Shown in pieces: positions 17,531 through 27,189 of a stretch of DNA of 45,350 nucleotides. The notes beneath the pieces are model-generated. The model was not told the origin of the DNA. It worked only from the letters and a program-made list of their open reading frames with translations, and did not search any database. Source of the DNA: a virus; IMG/VR virus record IMGVR_UViG_3300031841_004244, positions 1-45,350 of that record; one strand, 5' to 3'. The translations under genes and the position numbers were made by a program. Position 1 is the stretch's first letter. The number at the start of each line of letters is the position of its first letter.

Positions 17531-18157
17531 ATGAGTATTTTGTTTTTGACATTAATTTTAAATATTGAAAATAAATCGGTTTATCAAACACCGCTTGAAA
17601 GACTTGTTCATCTTGTTGAGTCTGATGGTAGACTTACAAACAACGAGCCTATACTAGGTGACTGGTGTGAAAAAAGACAAAGGTTTCTTTCGAGAGGGCC
17701 TTTGCAAATAACCAGAGATTGTCATACCGATGCTAATGTTAGTTTTCCGTATGAAGAGGTAGATAGCCTAGAAAACTCACTGATTGTTTTTCGTAAATAT
17801 ATGAAACGATATGCCAACAAAGATAGATTTGTGCGATTAGGCATTAATAGAGAACCTACCGCAGAAGACATGTTAAGAATTTGGGTTGGTGGACCAAAAG
17901 GCTTTTTGAAAAAGTCAACAGATTCTTATTGGGAAAATAGTTTAAGGAGATTTTTGATGAAACTCAATGTAGGGCAAAAAGTATTTTGTAAGAGTTCAAA
18001 TAGAGAGGCAACTATTGTCTCAATCAACGAAGAAAAGATTACAATCAAGTATGAGACATCTGGTGAGATCACAGAAGTAACACAAGGACAGATTTCACAG
18101 TTGCTTCTTGGAAACAATGATCAATCAGATCAAACTTTTTTACAAGAGGGTCAATAA
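17531..18157 (+). CDS. i-type-lysozyme-like endolysin candidate (208 aa)
   Basis: Likely cleaves peptidoglycan. After a hydrophobic N-terminus (ILFLTLIL, possible signal-anchor) it shows the order of invertebrate-type (destabilase) lysozymes: VESDGR with Glu30 as candidate acid, RGPLQITRDC (55-64), YMKRYA (90-95), then AEDMLRIWVGGPKG (111-124) and YW (133-134). Residues about 143-195 form a second beta-rich domain (VGQKVFCKSSNREATIVSIN) like an SH3/Tudor wall-binding module. The ATG is 3 bp after tRNA-Leu(TAG) with no Shine-Dalgarno. It shares one base with the next gene. Confidence 0.68.
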   Translation: MSILFLTLILNIENKSVYQTPLERLVHLVESDGRLTNNEPILGDWCEKRQRFLSRGPLQITRDCHTDANVSFPYEEVDSLENSLIVFRKYMKRYANKDRFVRLGINREPTAEDMLRIWVGGPKGFLKKSTDSYWENSLRRFLMKLNVGQKVFCKSSNREATIVSINEEKITIKYETSGEITEVTQGQISQLLLGNNDQSDQTFLQEGQ

Positions 18158-19125
18158 TGGGAAAGTGTCCATTTTCAATATTTCAAAGCAAAAAAGGTCG
18201 TGTTGAGGAAGTAAAACCCTCCATCGTACAAGATCATACAGAATCACCTTTCTTAAGAGTGAGAAGATTACATCCAACCCAAGGGATTAAAATTGTTCCA
18301 GCAAACCGTAAACTAATAGGTCCTGATGGTCAAAATGAAACAGAGCATAATTACTCTAGATCTGGAGCGATCAAAAGATGCGGCCCTTATGTTCACGCAA
18401 ACAGTTTAGGTTGGTGGATCTTTCCTGCTGTCGATTTAGATGCTACTTATCACCCCAACGGTGAATGGACAATACACGAATATAACAAGTTTGATGAAAT
18501 TCAACAACATGAGTACCTGTCTAGTCTACCATCCTATGAGTATAAAACAGAGAGTGGAGAAACTCGTGAATTACCATCAAAATATTTAACTAGAAGTTAT
18601 GTTAATGCAGGTCTCGCAGATGAGAATATTCTTCAAATCTGGACAGGAGTTATTCTCAGAACACCGCCTGGTTGGGGACTTTTAATTCGAAGTCCAATCA
18701 ATGTGGAAGAGGACTATGATAGATCTTGGTACATTCAAGAGGGAGTCATAGAATCTGATTGGATGGATTATGATATTTGGACAAATATTGTTTTTAAGAA
18801 GCCAAATCAGAAAGTTGAAATACGTCAAAAGATGTGGCCTCCCCTCGCACAAATTGTTCCAATTCGTCGAGAAGCCTATGATACAAAATGGGATATTGAT
18901 GATCAGTTAATTACTGCTGATGATCCAGAATTTGCTTCTTGGCAAGATTATACCTTTAAAAAATGGACACAGATAAACGAAAAAGAAGGTAAAACATATT
19001 ACAAAGAGCGAGCAGTTCAAAAACCACGTCCTGATGATTCAAAGATTGAGTCTCTTCGTGAAAAATATGCTACCAGTAGAAACGAACATCAGGTAAGAAA
19101 AGATGTGAAAAAGGATTCAGAATAA
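18157..19125 (+). CDS. DUF6065-like protein, copy 1 (322 aa)
   Basis: Shares with the gene at 23868 the start MxKCPF, a core ANSLGWWIFPAVD, an LQIWTGVILRTPPGWGLLIRSPIN segment, then EGVIESDW and PLAQIVPIRR. This is the pattern of DUF6065, a family of unknown function known from bacteria and phages (name from memory). The C-terminal ~80 residues are charged and helical. Tight TAATG coupling to the lysozyme-like gene. The first Cys-containing motif may bind metal or be modified; no activity is known. Confidence 0.7.
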   Translation: MGKCPFSIFQSKKGRVEEVKPSIVQDHTESPFLRVRRLHPTQGIKIVPANRKLIGPDGQNETEHNYSRSGAIKRCGPYVHANSLGWWIFPAVDLDATYHPNGEWTIHEYNKFDEIQQHEYLSSLPSYEYKTESGETRELPSKYLTRSYVNAGLADENILQIWTGVILRTPPGWGLLIRSPINVEEDYDRSWYIQEGVIESDWMDYDIWTNIVFKKPNQKVEIRQKMWPPLAQIVPIRREAYDTKWDIDDQLITADDPEFASWQDYTFKKWTQINEKEGKTYYKERAVQKPRPDDSKIESLREKYATSRNEHQVRKDVKKDSE

Positions 19126-23730: not shown

Positions 23731-23868
23731 ATGGCAAGACAAACCACAAACGAAAAAGCACATGTTCAGGGTCTTTTGAAAGAGGGTCGTTTGCGTCCTT
23801 CTAAGAGATCAAAAAGACCAGGTGCTGCTCGAACAAGTCGATCAGGTAACGGAAAGAAAATTAAGTAA
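23731..23868 (+). CDS. Small basic protein (45 aa)
   Basis: CAGGAGAAC precedes the ATG. Lys/Arg/Ser/Gly rich (GRLRPSKRSKRPGAARTSRSGNGKK), likely disordered and nucleic-acid binding. It shares one base with the DUF6065-like gene that follows. Confidence 0.5.
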   Translation: MARQTTNEKAHVQGLLKEGRLRPSKRSKRPGAARTSRSGNGKKIK

Positions 23869-24842
23869 TGTCAAAGTGTCCTTTTGGTTTTATAGCAGAA
23901 AAGTTTAACAAGGATAATCCTGATCTGAAAACAACAAAAGAAAGTTATCCAAAAGAAACTTTTGATGAGTCTAAACTTTCAATCATTGCACATGATGTTG
24001 GTGCTGCTGAATGGGGTATTGAAATAGAAACCGCACCATCTCAAAGAGAATGGATGACTGACACGAAAGGTCATGCTTACAAGTGTTTACCTTTGGTTGC
24101 CGCAAATAACCTAGGTTGGGTATTGAGATGTCCATCATCTTTTTCTGCTTATTGGACTGGTAATAAAGGATTAAACTCTGTTCGTATAATTCCACACACA
24201 AAAGAAAAAATTAATTTTGTCCAATCGCATTTTGGACATGGAACTTTAACTTTTCATCCTGGGTTTATTTTTACAACAACAAAAAATCACGGACTCTATG
24301 TAAAAGGACCAACAAACCTTCCCGACTTTGAAAAAAAAATGGGCATAACACCATTAGAAGGTCTTGTTGAAACTGACTGGCTTCAATTTTCATTTACAAT
24401 GAACTGGAAATTCACTGAGTCTCGAAGACTAGTTACTTTTTATCAAGATGACATTTTTTGTCAATTTTTTCCATATCCTAGAAGTTATGTTTCGCAGTTT
24501 GAAACAGACACAAGATTAATTGAAGACAGTAAAGGTTTTGAAAAGTCTGTGCGAAATTACAAAGAACATCGAGATCTTGTGCAAAAGACAATTGAAGAAA
24601 CAAAAGAATCGCCGCCAAAAGATATTCAACTACACTATCTTCGAGGAGAAAATATTGATGGTACAAAAACTTCAATTTCAGAACTTGGTTTTACACATGA
24701 ACCCAAGTGCGGTGCAAAAAAGTTTCCTGTGATATCTAAAGATCAATTGGTGTATGAAACTGAAGAGATACAAGATCTTTTAGACAAAGGCGCCGAACAT
24801 GAAGAAATAGTTGAAAAGATTAAAGAAAAAAATGAAGATTAA
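23868..24842 (+). CDS. DUF6065-like protein, copy 2 (324 aa)
   Basis: Paralogue of the gene at 18157. The start is MSKCPF, followed by a family-typical YKCLPLVAANNLGWVLRCP, SHFGHGTLTFHPGFIFTT, GLYVKGPTNLPD and EGLVETDWLQFSFTMNWKF. This copy keeps the N-terminal part usual in the family better than copy 1. The C-terminal ~70 residues are acidic and helical. It ends the operon; a terminator follows. Catalytic function is unknown. Confidence 0.72.
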   Translation: MSKCPFGFIAEKFNKDNPDLKTTKESYPKETFDESKLSIIAHDVGAAEWGIEIETAPSQREWMTDTKGHAYKCLPLVAANNLGWVLRCPSSFSAYWTGNKGLNSVRIIPHTKEKINFVQSHFGHGTLTFHPGFIFTTTKNHGLYVKGPTNLPDFEKKMGITPLEGLVETDWLQFSFTMNWKFTESRRLVTFYQDDIFCQFFPYPRSYVSQFETDTRLIEDSKGFEKSVRNYKEHRDLVQKTIEETKESPPKDIQLHYLRGENIDGTKTSISELGFTHEPKCGAKKFPVISKDQLVYETEEIQDLLDKGAEHEEIVEKIKEKNED

Positions 24843-24844
24843 AC

Positions 24845-24874
24845 AAGACCCCGTAAGGGGTCTTTAATTTTTCA
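24845..24874 (+). terminator. Rho-independent terminator
   Basis: AAGACCCC (24845-24852), loop GTAA, GGGGTCTT (24857-24864), then a T-rich tract. It closes the early operon that begins at 21182. Confidence 0.85.
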
Positions 24875-24898
24875 CACAACGCTAATACATCCTGTACT
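24871..24898 (+). promoter_or_regulatory. Possible promoter for the beta-helix/TonB pair (TTCACA-N16-TGTACT)
   Basis: TTCACA (24871-24876) and TGTACT (24893-24898) with the same 16-bp spacer as the other early-type promoters, directly after a terminator. The -10 is weak. A leader of about 50 nt with AGGGGAG precedes the ATG at 24956. Confidence 0.4.
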
Positions 24899-24955
24899 AA
24901 AAATTAACACTCCCAATAATAAGTAATTGTTTGCCAATTTTTAGGGGAGTTTCAC

Positions 24956-26557
24956 ATGACAAATCTCGTTCTTGCTTTTACTCTGGCAGCAAACATTGAT
25001 GTTACTGAAGACATCGCAACATCAACAACTTGGACTGCGGACAACACCTACAATCTAACAAAACAAATTTATGTGTTGCCGGGGGCAACTTTGACAATTG
25101 AAGCAGGAACAATCATTGCTTCAGAAGCAACTGCAAATGGTGCAGGTGGTTTATGTGTGACAAATGGCGCACAAATTTTTGTAAACGGAGAAAGACACGC
25201 ACCAGTCGTGATGACTTCAACCCTTGATGATGGGACTTGGAGAGCATCTGCGAATGAGTGGGGTAATCTTACGCTATGCGGTGATGCATATATCGGATTC
25301 GATGGTGTAACAAACTCTGGAGGTTTCCCTTCAAACACCCTGACTCCGAGTGCATCTAACCAAGCAAACATGGAAGGTCTTGTTGAAACAGCAGGCAACT
25401 CATCTCTAAATAATTATGGTGGTGGTGATGACGATTATGATGCAGGCAATTTATCTTATCTGTCTATTCGCTATGCGGGTAGAGTTGTCGGACTATCTAA
25501 TGAACTCAATGGTCTGTCTCTTGGTGCTATTGGTCGGGATACGAAAATCCATCACATCGAAGTAATGAACAACGTCGATGACGGCATCGAGATTTGGGGT
25601 GGTACGGTTGACCTCAAGTATGTCTCTATCTGGAATGTTGGTGATGACTCGTTTGATGTTGATCAAGGTTGGAGAGGTCGGGCGCAGTTTGGTTTGATCG
25701 TGCAAGGCTATTCACGAAACGCTTCACAAGGTTCTGGACTCGGTGACAATATCTTTGAGTTTGATGGTGCAGAAAACTCTGATGCTCAACCAAGAACTCG
25801 TGCAGCAATCTATAACTTTACCACGATTGCAAACACTGAGTCTGGCGATGGTACAACAACTTGGAGAGACAACGCATCGGTTCAATTCCGAAACAATATC
25901 TTCATCGGTAAAGGCGACAAACTTGTTCGTGCTGATGGGGATGATGGAGATGGATCTTCTGGGTATGGTCACAACGGTTCTCTGACGCTCGCTGAACGCT
26001 TTGAGACAGATGCAGTGGGATCAAACGGGATTGCTTACATTGATCCTGTAAACGCTGGTGCTTCTTCTATGATGGACAATCTGTATCAAGCACAAACCGA
26101 TGGTAAACTTGCAGAATTGTCAAACAACATTATCTCTGGTTTTGGTGATATTTCCGATGACCCATACTACGACATCGTGCCTGCGTCAATGCGTGTCACA
26201 AATGTTGAAACCGCAGAACTTCCGATTCGCACACTGGTTCGTGCGCCGAGTGTTGTTGTCGGTGGTAAGTCTGTGAATGCTGTTGTGTCAATTGACCCGA
26301 CACCGATTGACTCTGACATTATCACGACACCCGCTCCTGCACCTGCAAATGGTTTCTATTCACCCGTCACCTATCGTGGTGGTTTTGCTCCCGATGAAAA
26401 CTGGTTGCTCGGATGGTCTGCTGCTGATGAGTTTGGTTTCTTGACAGGAACAGACGATAGCGATTGTGGAACTTGTAAGGGTGATGCAAATGCCGATGGT
26501 GTGGTTGGTTTCCTTGACCTGACTACTATTCTTGGAAACTGGGGATGCGAAGGCTAA
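24956..26557 (+). CDS. Secreted beta-helix protein with C-terminal dockerin-like repeat (533 aa)
   Basis: A short hydrophobic N-terminus (TNLVLAFTLAA) could be a signal peptide, though it lacks basic residues. The body resembles bacterial right-handed beta-helix surface proteins: TWTADNTYNLTKQIYVLPGATLTIEAGTII, IRYAGRVVG, NNVDDGIEIWGGTVDLKYVSIWNVGDDSFDVDQGW. Residues about 504-533 end CGTCKGDANADGVVG, with a DxNxDGxVxxxD calcium loop and a final NWGC, the dockerin-like terminal repeat typical of Planctomycetota and related surface proteins. It has a higher-GC, cell-like composition than its neighbours and a 13-bp overlap with the tonB-like gene. It may alter the host surface or act as a virion fibre. 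Confidence 0.75.
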   Translation: MTNLVLAFTLAANIDVTEDIATSTTWTADNTYNLTKQIYVLPGATLTIEAGTIIASEATANGAGGLCVTNGAQIFVNGERHAPVVMTSTLDDGTWRASANEWGNLTLCGDAYIGFDGVTNSGGFPSNTLTPSASNQANMEGLVETAGNSSLNNYGGGDDDYDAGNLSYLSIRYAGRVVGLSNELNGLSLGAIGRDTKIHHIEVMNNVDDGIEIWGGTVDLKYVSIWNVGDDSFDVDQGWRGRAQFGLIVQGYSRNASQGSGLGDNIFEFDGAENSDAQPRTRAAIYNFTTIANTESGDGTTTWRDNASVQFRNNIFIGKGDKLVRADGDDGDGSSGYGHNGSLTLAERFETDAVGSNGIAYIDPVNAGASSMMDNLYQAQTDGKLAELSNNIISGFGDISDDPYYDIVPASMRVTNVETAELPIRTLVRAPSVVVGGKSVNAVVSIDPTPIDSDIITTPAPAPANGFYSPVTYRGGFAPDENWLLGWSAADEFGFLTGTDDSDCGTCKGDANADGVVGFLDLTTILGNWGCEG

Positions 26558-27186
26558 TCAGAACATTTGTTGCTTTCATTCTTGGGTTAGTATGCACAGC
26601 ATTCTTCTTTATGCTGTTGCCATTACTTCAAGCGATCAACTCTCCATTCCAAGGTGATTCTATGGTACGAACGATGGAAATAGTCAGCGTCCCACCACCT
26701 CCACCACCACCGATGGATGAACCGGATAAGCCTGAACCCGAACCAGAGCCAGAACCACCTCAGATAGAATTCACACCTGAACCGCTCGACATCAGCCAGT
26801 TAGAGGTTATGCTCAATCCCGGCTTTGGTGATTTTATGGGTGGTGACTTCGGTATTCAGTTGAAGAGTGCAATAGCAAATAGCGAAGAGATGAATGAAAT
26901 TTTTTCTTCGTCAGAACTCGATCAGAAGGCTCGCCGTTTGAGTGTGGTACAACCTCGTGTCACCTCTACGTTACTTCGTCAAGCCCCTGCGACCGTAGTA
27001 GTAATCTTTATTGTTGATGAAAATGGCAGGGTTCAAGATCCCAAAATTCAGCGAACGACTAATCCATCCTTTGATCGATCTGCTCTTTCTGCTATCAAGC
27101 AATGGAAGTTTGAGCCTGCCAAAGTTCAGGGTCGTGCCGTTTCAAGTCGTCTGCGACAATCATTTTCTTTTGAAAATAACGTATAA
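26545..27186 (+). CDS. TonB-family energy-transducer protein (213 aa)
   Basis: Classic TonB layout. An N-terminal Arg-Arg start and inner-membrane helix (about residues 5-31) come first. A Pro-rich periplasmic spacer follows (SVPPPPPPPMDEP, PEPEPEPEPP). After a ~60-residue linker comes a C-terminal domain (about 145-208) with ATVVVIFIVDENGRVQDPKI, then FDRSALSAIKQWKFEPAKVQGRAV, the family signature. TonB couples ExbB/ExbD to outer-membrane receptors. No exbB or exbD is in the window. It overlaps the beta-helix gene and is followed by a late promoter. TonB genes are very unusual in phages. Confidence 0.88.
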   Translation: MRRLIRTFVAFILGLVCTAFFFMLLPLLQAINSPFQGDSMVRTMEIVSVPPPPPPPMDEPDKPEPEPEPEPPQIEFTPEPLDISQLEVMLNPGFGDFMGGDFGIQLKSAIANSEEMNEIFSSSELDQKARRLSVVQPRVTSTLLRQAPATVVVIFIVDENGRVQDPKIQRTTNPSFDRSALSAIKQWKFEPAKVQGRAVSSRLRQSFSFENNV

Positions 27187-27189
27187 ATA
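27182..27189 (+). promoter_or_regulatory. T4-type late promoter (TATAAATA)
   Basis: Exact TATAAATA 14 bp before the ATG at 27204, overlapping the TonB stop codon region. Initiation is expected near 27195, inside the 5' arm of the hairpin at 27191-27212. Confidence 0.65.

Follow-up and report, generated by a model that had tools for sequence, protein, structure and literature searches.

Why would a phage carry a gene for TonB, the energy transducer of Ton systems, overlapping a gene for a secreted surface protein? The question is raised by two open reading frames in the DNA analysed here, a 45,350-base virus record that we call the window. The virus is a marine, T4-like one: its polymerase (PHROG 262) is ~50% identical to cyanomyovirus gp43, and its other genes include those for a clamp loader, thymidylate synthase, primase and class II ribonucleotide reductase. 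Both reading frames lie where a preliminary description of the sequence had placed them (Table 1), with an overlap of 13 nt, and the overlapping TonB start recurs in two related contigs, L003 and L005. They are also richer in GC than their flanks, as that description had proposed (0.457 and 0.450 vs 0.342 and 0.361 in the adjoining genes). Both genes are real, complete and phage-borne. The explanation that we consider fairly likely is that they form a phosphate-acquisition cassette under host PhoB control, with which a T4-like phage resupplies the transducer and the surface partner of the host's Ton system.

Table 1. Features of the cassette and its borders in the window.
Feature	Position	Strand	Basis
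Intrinsic terminator ahead of the cassette	24845..24864	+	8-bp stem, 5 G-C pairs, T-rich tail
Pho-box-like array TTCACA / CTAATA / TGTACT / TTAACA, 11-bp period	24871..24909	+	Motif scoring
-10-like TAAGTA, 10 nt past the last repeat	24920..24925	+	Conserved block
Short signal-peptide-like N-terminus, 12 aa, without lipobox cysteine	24956..24991	+	Comparison of phage copies
ElpS-like secreted beta-helix protein (P0001), 533 aa	24956..26557	+	Operon homology, tree, model
Single EF-hand-like (half-dockerin) calcium loop DANADGVVGFLD	26483..26518	+	Sequence
TonB energy transducer (P0002), 213 aa	26545..27186	+	PF03544, TIGR01352, alignment
T4-type late promoter match TATAAATA that spans the TonB stop codon, for the next gene	27182..27189	+	Motif

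The two proteins and their planctomycete source

The TonB assignment is firm. P0002 scores above the curated cut-offs of both TonB_C PF03544 (2e-13, 51 bits, cut-off 24.6) and TIGR01352 (4e-12, 46.2 bits, cut-off 27.1), and its sequence, aligned with planctomycete TonBs, shows a hydrophobic helix at the N-terminus, a periplasmic spacer rich in Pro and Glu, and the C-terminal domain, in agreement with the earlier claim that the protein is complete. No homologues of it were found in GenBank phages, and in the literature searched no TonB encoded by a phage had a described role. Three genes in gut lambda-like virus contigs do share the tonB label (K03832) in the VIBRANT paper (PMC7288430), but those labels come from automatic annotation and, unlike the window pair, have no described partner gene or regulation.

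For P0001, which had been described as a beta-helix protein with a dockerin-like tail, the first half of that description stood, but the second, taken strictly, did not. Pfam profiles gave no match even at E 10, whereas the AlphaFold model (pLDDT 79, pTM 0.84) is mostly beta-strand and Foldseek returned weak matches to beta-helix tailspikes and pectate lyases (best E 3e-3). We rejected a type I dockerin, and with it the cellulosome idea: the protein has a single EF-hand-like loop (GDANADGVVGFLDLTTILGNWG, residues 509-530) instead of two repeats, and Dockerin_1 PF00404 is not matched at E 10. Several planctomycete homologues have two EF-hand-like repeats. At the other end of the protein, the N-terminus varies in sequence among the phage copies but keeps its hydrophobicity, and the following 521 aa are conserved; the protein is presumably exported. 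We found no lipoprotein anchor, as the N-terminal signal-like segment contains no cysteine. The extreme C-terminus also differs among copies that are otherwise closely similar, L003 and L012 carrying another EF-hand-like variant than the window, L005 and L011, which suggests a recombined or swapped tail.

The nearest cellular homologues of P0001 (45-59% identity) belong to Planctomycetota, where they are encoded by the first gene of Ton operons with the order beta-helix, ~440-aa protein, TonB-dependent receptor, DUF3450, ExbB, ExbB, ExbD, TonB, TPR; in some planctomycete genomes the operon block begins at the receptor. In an even sample of Planctomycetota, the beta-helix gene is present in 51/392 genomes and the TonB gene also in 51/392, largely the same ones. 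Over almost its whole length, membrane helix and spacer included, the phage TonB shares up to 49% identity with the TonBs of these operons, and in a tree the phage beta-helix proteins form one clade within the planctomycete clade (100/100). Planctomycetota are not a strict single clade in this tree, because a contig titled Flavobacteriales (L033), which may be mis-binned, falls inside. The operon homology of both genes, together with the tree, bears out the cellular origin proposed earlier and traces the pair to one planctomycete-type Ton operon. Since no receptor, ExbB, ExbD or TPR genes were found in the phage loci, the phage would depend on its host for them, and from gene origin and promoter type we infer that the probable host is a planctomycete, or else another bacterium equipped with this Ton system. 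The planctomycete operon specifies the same six-part motor as the Vibrio TonB2/TtpBCD system, namely DUF3450 (TtpB), TtpC (ExbB-type), ExbB, ExbD, TonB and TPR (TtpD); the Vibrio systems import siderophores (PMC6957404), whereas the phage carries only the TonB and the surface protein.

What such a surface protein may do is suggested by a family of cellular lipoproteins. Caulobacter ElpS is exposed at the surface and made under phosphate starvation, and its gene lies beside those for a TonB-dependent receptor and a T2SS (PMC2996285). The Flavobacterium proteins FI-FIII, 31-36% identical to the Caulobacter protein, are strongly induced by phosphate depletion, the family responding to phosphate limitation and not to that of iron or nitrogen, and the FII gene is part of a PhoBR operon, again beside a receptor (PMC8115612). 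We liken the phage protein to ElpS and FI/FII/FIII by gene neighbourhood and not by an ElpS alignment: its homologues adjoin TonB-dependent receptors in planctomycetes, SAR86 and Sphingomonas, in the latter two together with a T2SS; a PHO4 transporter is a further neighbour in SAR86; and PhoB/PhoR-like genes lie nearby in several phyla, PhoB being the best NCBIfam model although below its cut-off. With homologues beside receptors and a beta-rich model, P0001 matches the family description. Unlike ElpS and FI-FIII, it lacks a lipobox and has an EF-hand-like loop at its C-terminal end, features that its planctomycete relatives share.

A Pho-box-like promoter

The terminator and possible promoter noted earlier ahead of the pair are both present, the latter as a conserved promoter-like block, and terminators stand at the equivalent place in L003, L005, L011, L012 and L013. 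Within the block, the four-repeat array is degenerate, with 18/24 matches to four copies of TTAACA, but ranks 1 of 90,622 window positions; the corresponding array also ranks first in L003, L011 and L173, but not in L005, L012, L013 or L164. In nine phage sequences, whose relatedness means that they do not count as independent, autocorrelation of the block gives z values of 4.2 at period 11 and 3.7 at period 22. The element AATAAGTA is unique in the window, and its distance of 36 nt from the first conserved repeat is constant across the window, L003, L005 and L012. Matches to the late promoter TATAAATA number 8 in the window vs 1.2 expected, and the one at the end of the TonB gene is as anticipated if late transcription resumes after the pair. 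We also considered an enteric-type Pho box and rejected it, as the window has no 12/14 match to CTGTCAT; the TTAACA form was found instead.

This form has a telling distribution in planctomycetes. In G001, perfect TTAACA triples occur at two places only: one is the beta-helix operon, and the other lies directly upstream of pstB-phoU, where PstB and PhoU both score above curated cut-offs. A first search of 12 planctomycete genomes gave sites in one only, so the perfect form is not universal in the phylum. Near-perfect sites were found in 5/246 planctomycete genomes, three of them before pstB-phoU (in one of these three genomes with a second site before an OprO/P-type porin) and one before a PstS-type protein; the L201 site has no obvious phosphate gene adjoining it, and a reversed control pattern gave no sites in the 246 genomes. 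Overall, the motif precedes pstB-phoU in four planctomycete genomes, and tandem TTAACA repeats with the 11-bp period stand before pstB-phoU or PstS-type genes in G001, G141, G172, G187 and G186. Upstream of the beta-helix gene itself, sites were found at p<=0.02 in 9/15 planctomycete loci, so that a convincing array is confined to a part of these operons; the count is supportive, but the matrix was built from the phage sequences and it is therefore not independent. Because the repeat precedes pstB-phoU, PstS-type and OprO/P-type genes as well as the beta-helix operon, it is very probably a Pho box, and TTAACA with an 11-bp period becomes a computed Pho-box candidate for Planctomycetota. Since binding tests do not always bear out a Pho box predicted in a phage (PMC10976474), we treat the Pho regulation of the cassette as putative.

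Recurrence, selection and a PiT-like alternative

The TonB gene is found in nine other IMG/VR viral contigs, and the beta-helix gene in several of these plus further contigs, within phage gene neighbourhoods. This recurrence in related phages, which the preliminary description had suggested looking for, argues that the pair is not a host/phage chimera joined at ~24.9 and 27.2 kb, although the exact junctions of the window were seen only once and not in a second contig: the DUF6065 gene upstream has only 34-42% relatives in other contigs, and two genes downstream have none there. In most relatives the cassette stands behind a run of ribonucleotide reductase, small ORF and porin gene, a placement from which the window differs. 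At this common locus we find the pair, the beta-helix gene alone, nothing, or a 315-aa membrane protein. TonB appears not to be always needed, since L011 and L012 lack it and L013 has a truncated copy. The L013 copy (L013:8747-10809) is either decaying or an assembly error; its deletion takes the beta-helix C-terminus, the TonB start and part of the TonB membrane helix.

When the window is compared with L011, synonymous sites are saturated in the reductase, whereas the beta-helix gene has a dS of 0.49 and a dN of 0.045; dN/dS is ~0.02-0.08 for TonB pairs among phages, and dN is far under dS for both genes in the phage copies. The cassette is thus under purifying selection, and its lower synonymous divergence than the reductase, combined with low dN/dS, implies that it was probably exchanged between phages and kept functional. 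Being of cellular origin and maintained by selection (tree, dN/dS, recurrence), the pair is a candidate phage auxiliary cassette for phosphorus acquisition, which would raise uptake by the host; having its own terminator and promoter-like block and being present or absent at one site, it is also a moron, and as self-contained as first supposed.

The 315-aa protein occupies the cassette site in several related phages (L164:4453-5400, also L167 and L172-L178), and 11-bp-period repeats stand ahead of its gene too. The sole PDB match of its profile is a phosphate transporter (6l85, 3e-4), and its best Pfam family is PHO4 PF01384, but at 16.2 bits vs a cut-off of 33.7, so we call it only PiT-like. 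An hhalign comparison with the SAR86 PiT was not significant, both profiles being very shallow. The gene before the common-locus cassette models as a general porin; genes predicted to have this fold lie downstream of the ribonucleotide reductase in L005 (1902-2672) and 25 other viral contigs. No homologues of the PiT-like protein or the porin were found in GenBank phages, and no PstS-type gene in related viral records.

A probable phosphate-acquisition cassette and competing readings

Taken with the Pho-box-like promoter and the Pho-regulon homologues, the PiT-like alternative gene favours the nutrient-uptake role that had been thought likely, and specifically uptake of phosphate. In a phosphate-starved host, a PhoB-type regulator would bind the repeats and transcribe the pair. 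The beta-helix protein would then be exported to the cell surface, where, judging from the host operon, it would partner the host's dedicated TonB-dependent receptor, while the phage TonB would enter the inner membrane by its host-type helix, use host ExbB/ExbD and energise that receptor. The phage would thereby provide two parts that may become limiting once host synthesis stops, transducer and surface partner, and leave receptor and motor to the host. In this way phosphate or organic phosphorus would keep entering the cell to feed phage DNA synthesis, and the cassette would be an outer-membrane counterpart of cyanophage PstS. We hold with somewhat less assurance, but still think it the better bet, that phages of planctomycete-type hosts carry, at one locus, a dedicated outer-membrane phosphate module, with a porin, ElpS-like protein and TonB, or else a PiT-like protein, as interchangeable contents, wired to the host's Pho system.

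TonB-dependent receptors are common phage receptors, and both proteins come from a receptor system; the beta-helix protein could therefore cap the receptor from outside while surplus TonB titrates receptors, keeping competing TonB-dependent phages out. The exchange of the cassette between phages would suit such superinfection exclusion, as exclusion genes are often swapped. We think it unlikely, given that helix, spacer and C-terminal domain are all retained as in working host TonBs and that uptake is the better match for a promoter under nutrient control and for substitution by a PiT-like gene; no specific finding points to exclusion. The same uptake cassette might serve another substrate, whether iron, B12 or a polysaccharide, as the siderophore-importing Vibrio systems and the phage's class II, B12-dependent reductase could suggest. 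This seems quite improbable in view of the Pho-box-like array, the pst/pho genes that share its motif, the PhoBR and PHO4 neighbours of the homologues, and the induction of the Flavobacterium family by phosphate limitation. The link once drawn between B12 import and the ribonucleotide reductase found no supporting context, the whole of the context indicating phosphate, and we have dropped it.

That the top Foldseek matches of P0001 are phage tailspikes would accord with a role in the virion, as an adhesin or tailspike binding the receptor by mimicry of the host's surface partner, TonB being incidental. The signal-like N-terminus, annotated neighbours without tail genes, the translational overlap with TonB, the starvation-type promoter and the close homology to cellular surface proteins make this highly improbable. 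We give just as little credence to recent neutral cargo or an assembly chimera: the GC contrast, the once-seen junctions and the apparent decay in L013 speak for it, but the recurrence in phage neighbourhoods, including copies of the beta-helix gene alone, and the strong purifying selection speak against.

Phosphate acquisition by phages under host PhoBR control is itself known, for cyanophage pstS (and phoA) (PMC10976474 and work cited there), and soil phages carry phosphorus-acquisition genes, including pit and pst, whose dN/dS is below 1 as in the window cassette (PMC10987575). New here is the Ton-driven form at the outer membrane. Cyanophage PstS is periplasmic and works with an ABC transporter, whereas the window's parts are those of outer membrane and Ton motor and lie behind a putative Pho box of planctomycete type; the soil phage paper lists neither a TonB nor a porin, and the window has a TonB. 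The phage phosphorus genes in the literature surveyed act in the periplasm or inner membrane or are enzymes and regulators, and the window pair would add the outer membrane and the Ton motor to these. If our reading is right, this would be the first TonB of a phage to be placed in a defined physiological circuit, a virus energising receptor uptake across the outer membrane. The pair also suggests a strategy of phages that infect planctomycete-type bacteria, and it opens the role of the ElpS-like family, and of its Ton operon, to direct test.

Some further observations concern other genes. GenBank phage matches to the beta-helix protein are 26-32% identical, and in a 634-kb phage record (L016, LR745206; 4830-8670) a beta-helix lipoprotein gene is immediately followed by a TonB-dependent receptor gene. 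Two window genes (18157-19125 and 23868-24842) weakly match the same PHROG (7084), the second being the DUF6065 gene (E 5e-66) directly ahead of the cassette. A 79-aa lipoprotein-like ORF at 277-516 has a GC content of 0.50, the highest among the window genes compared for GC.
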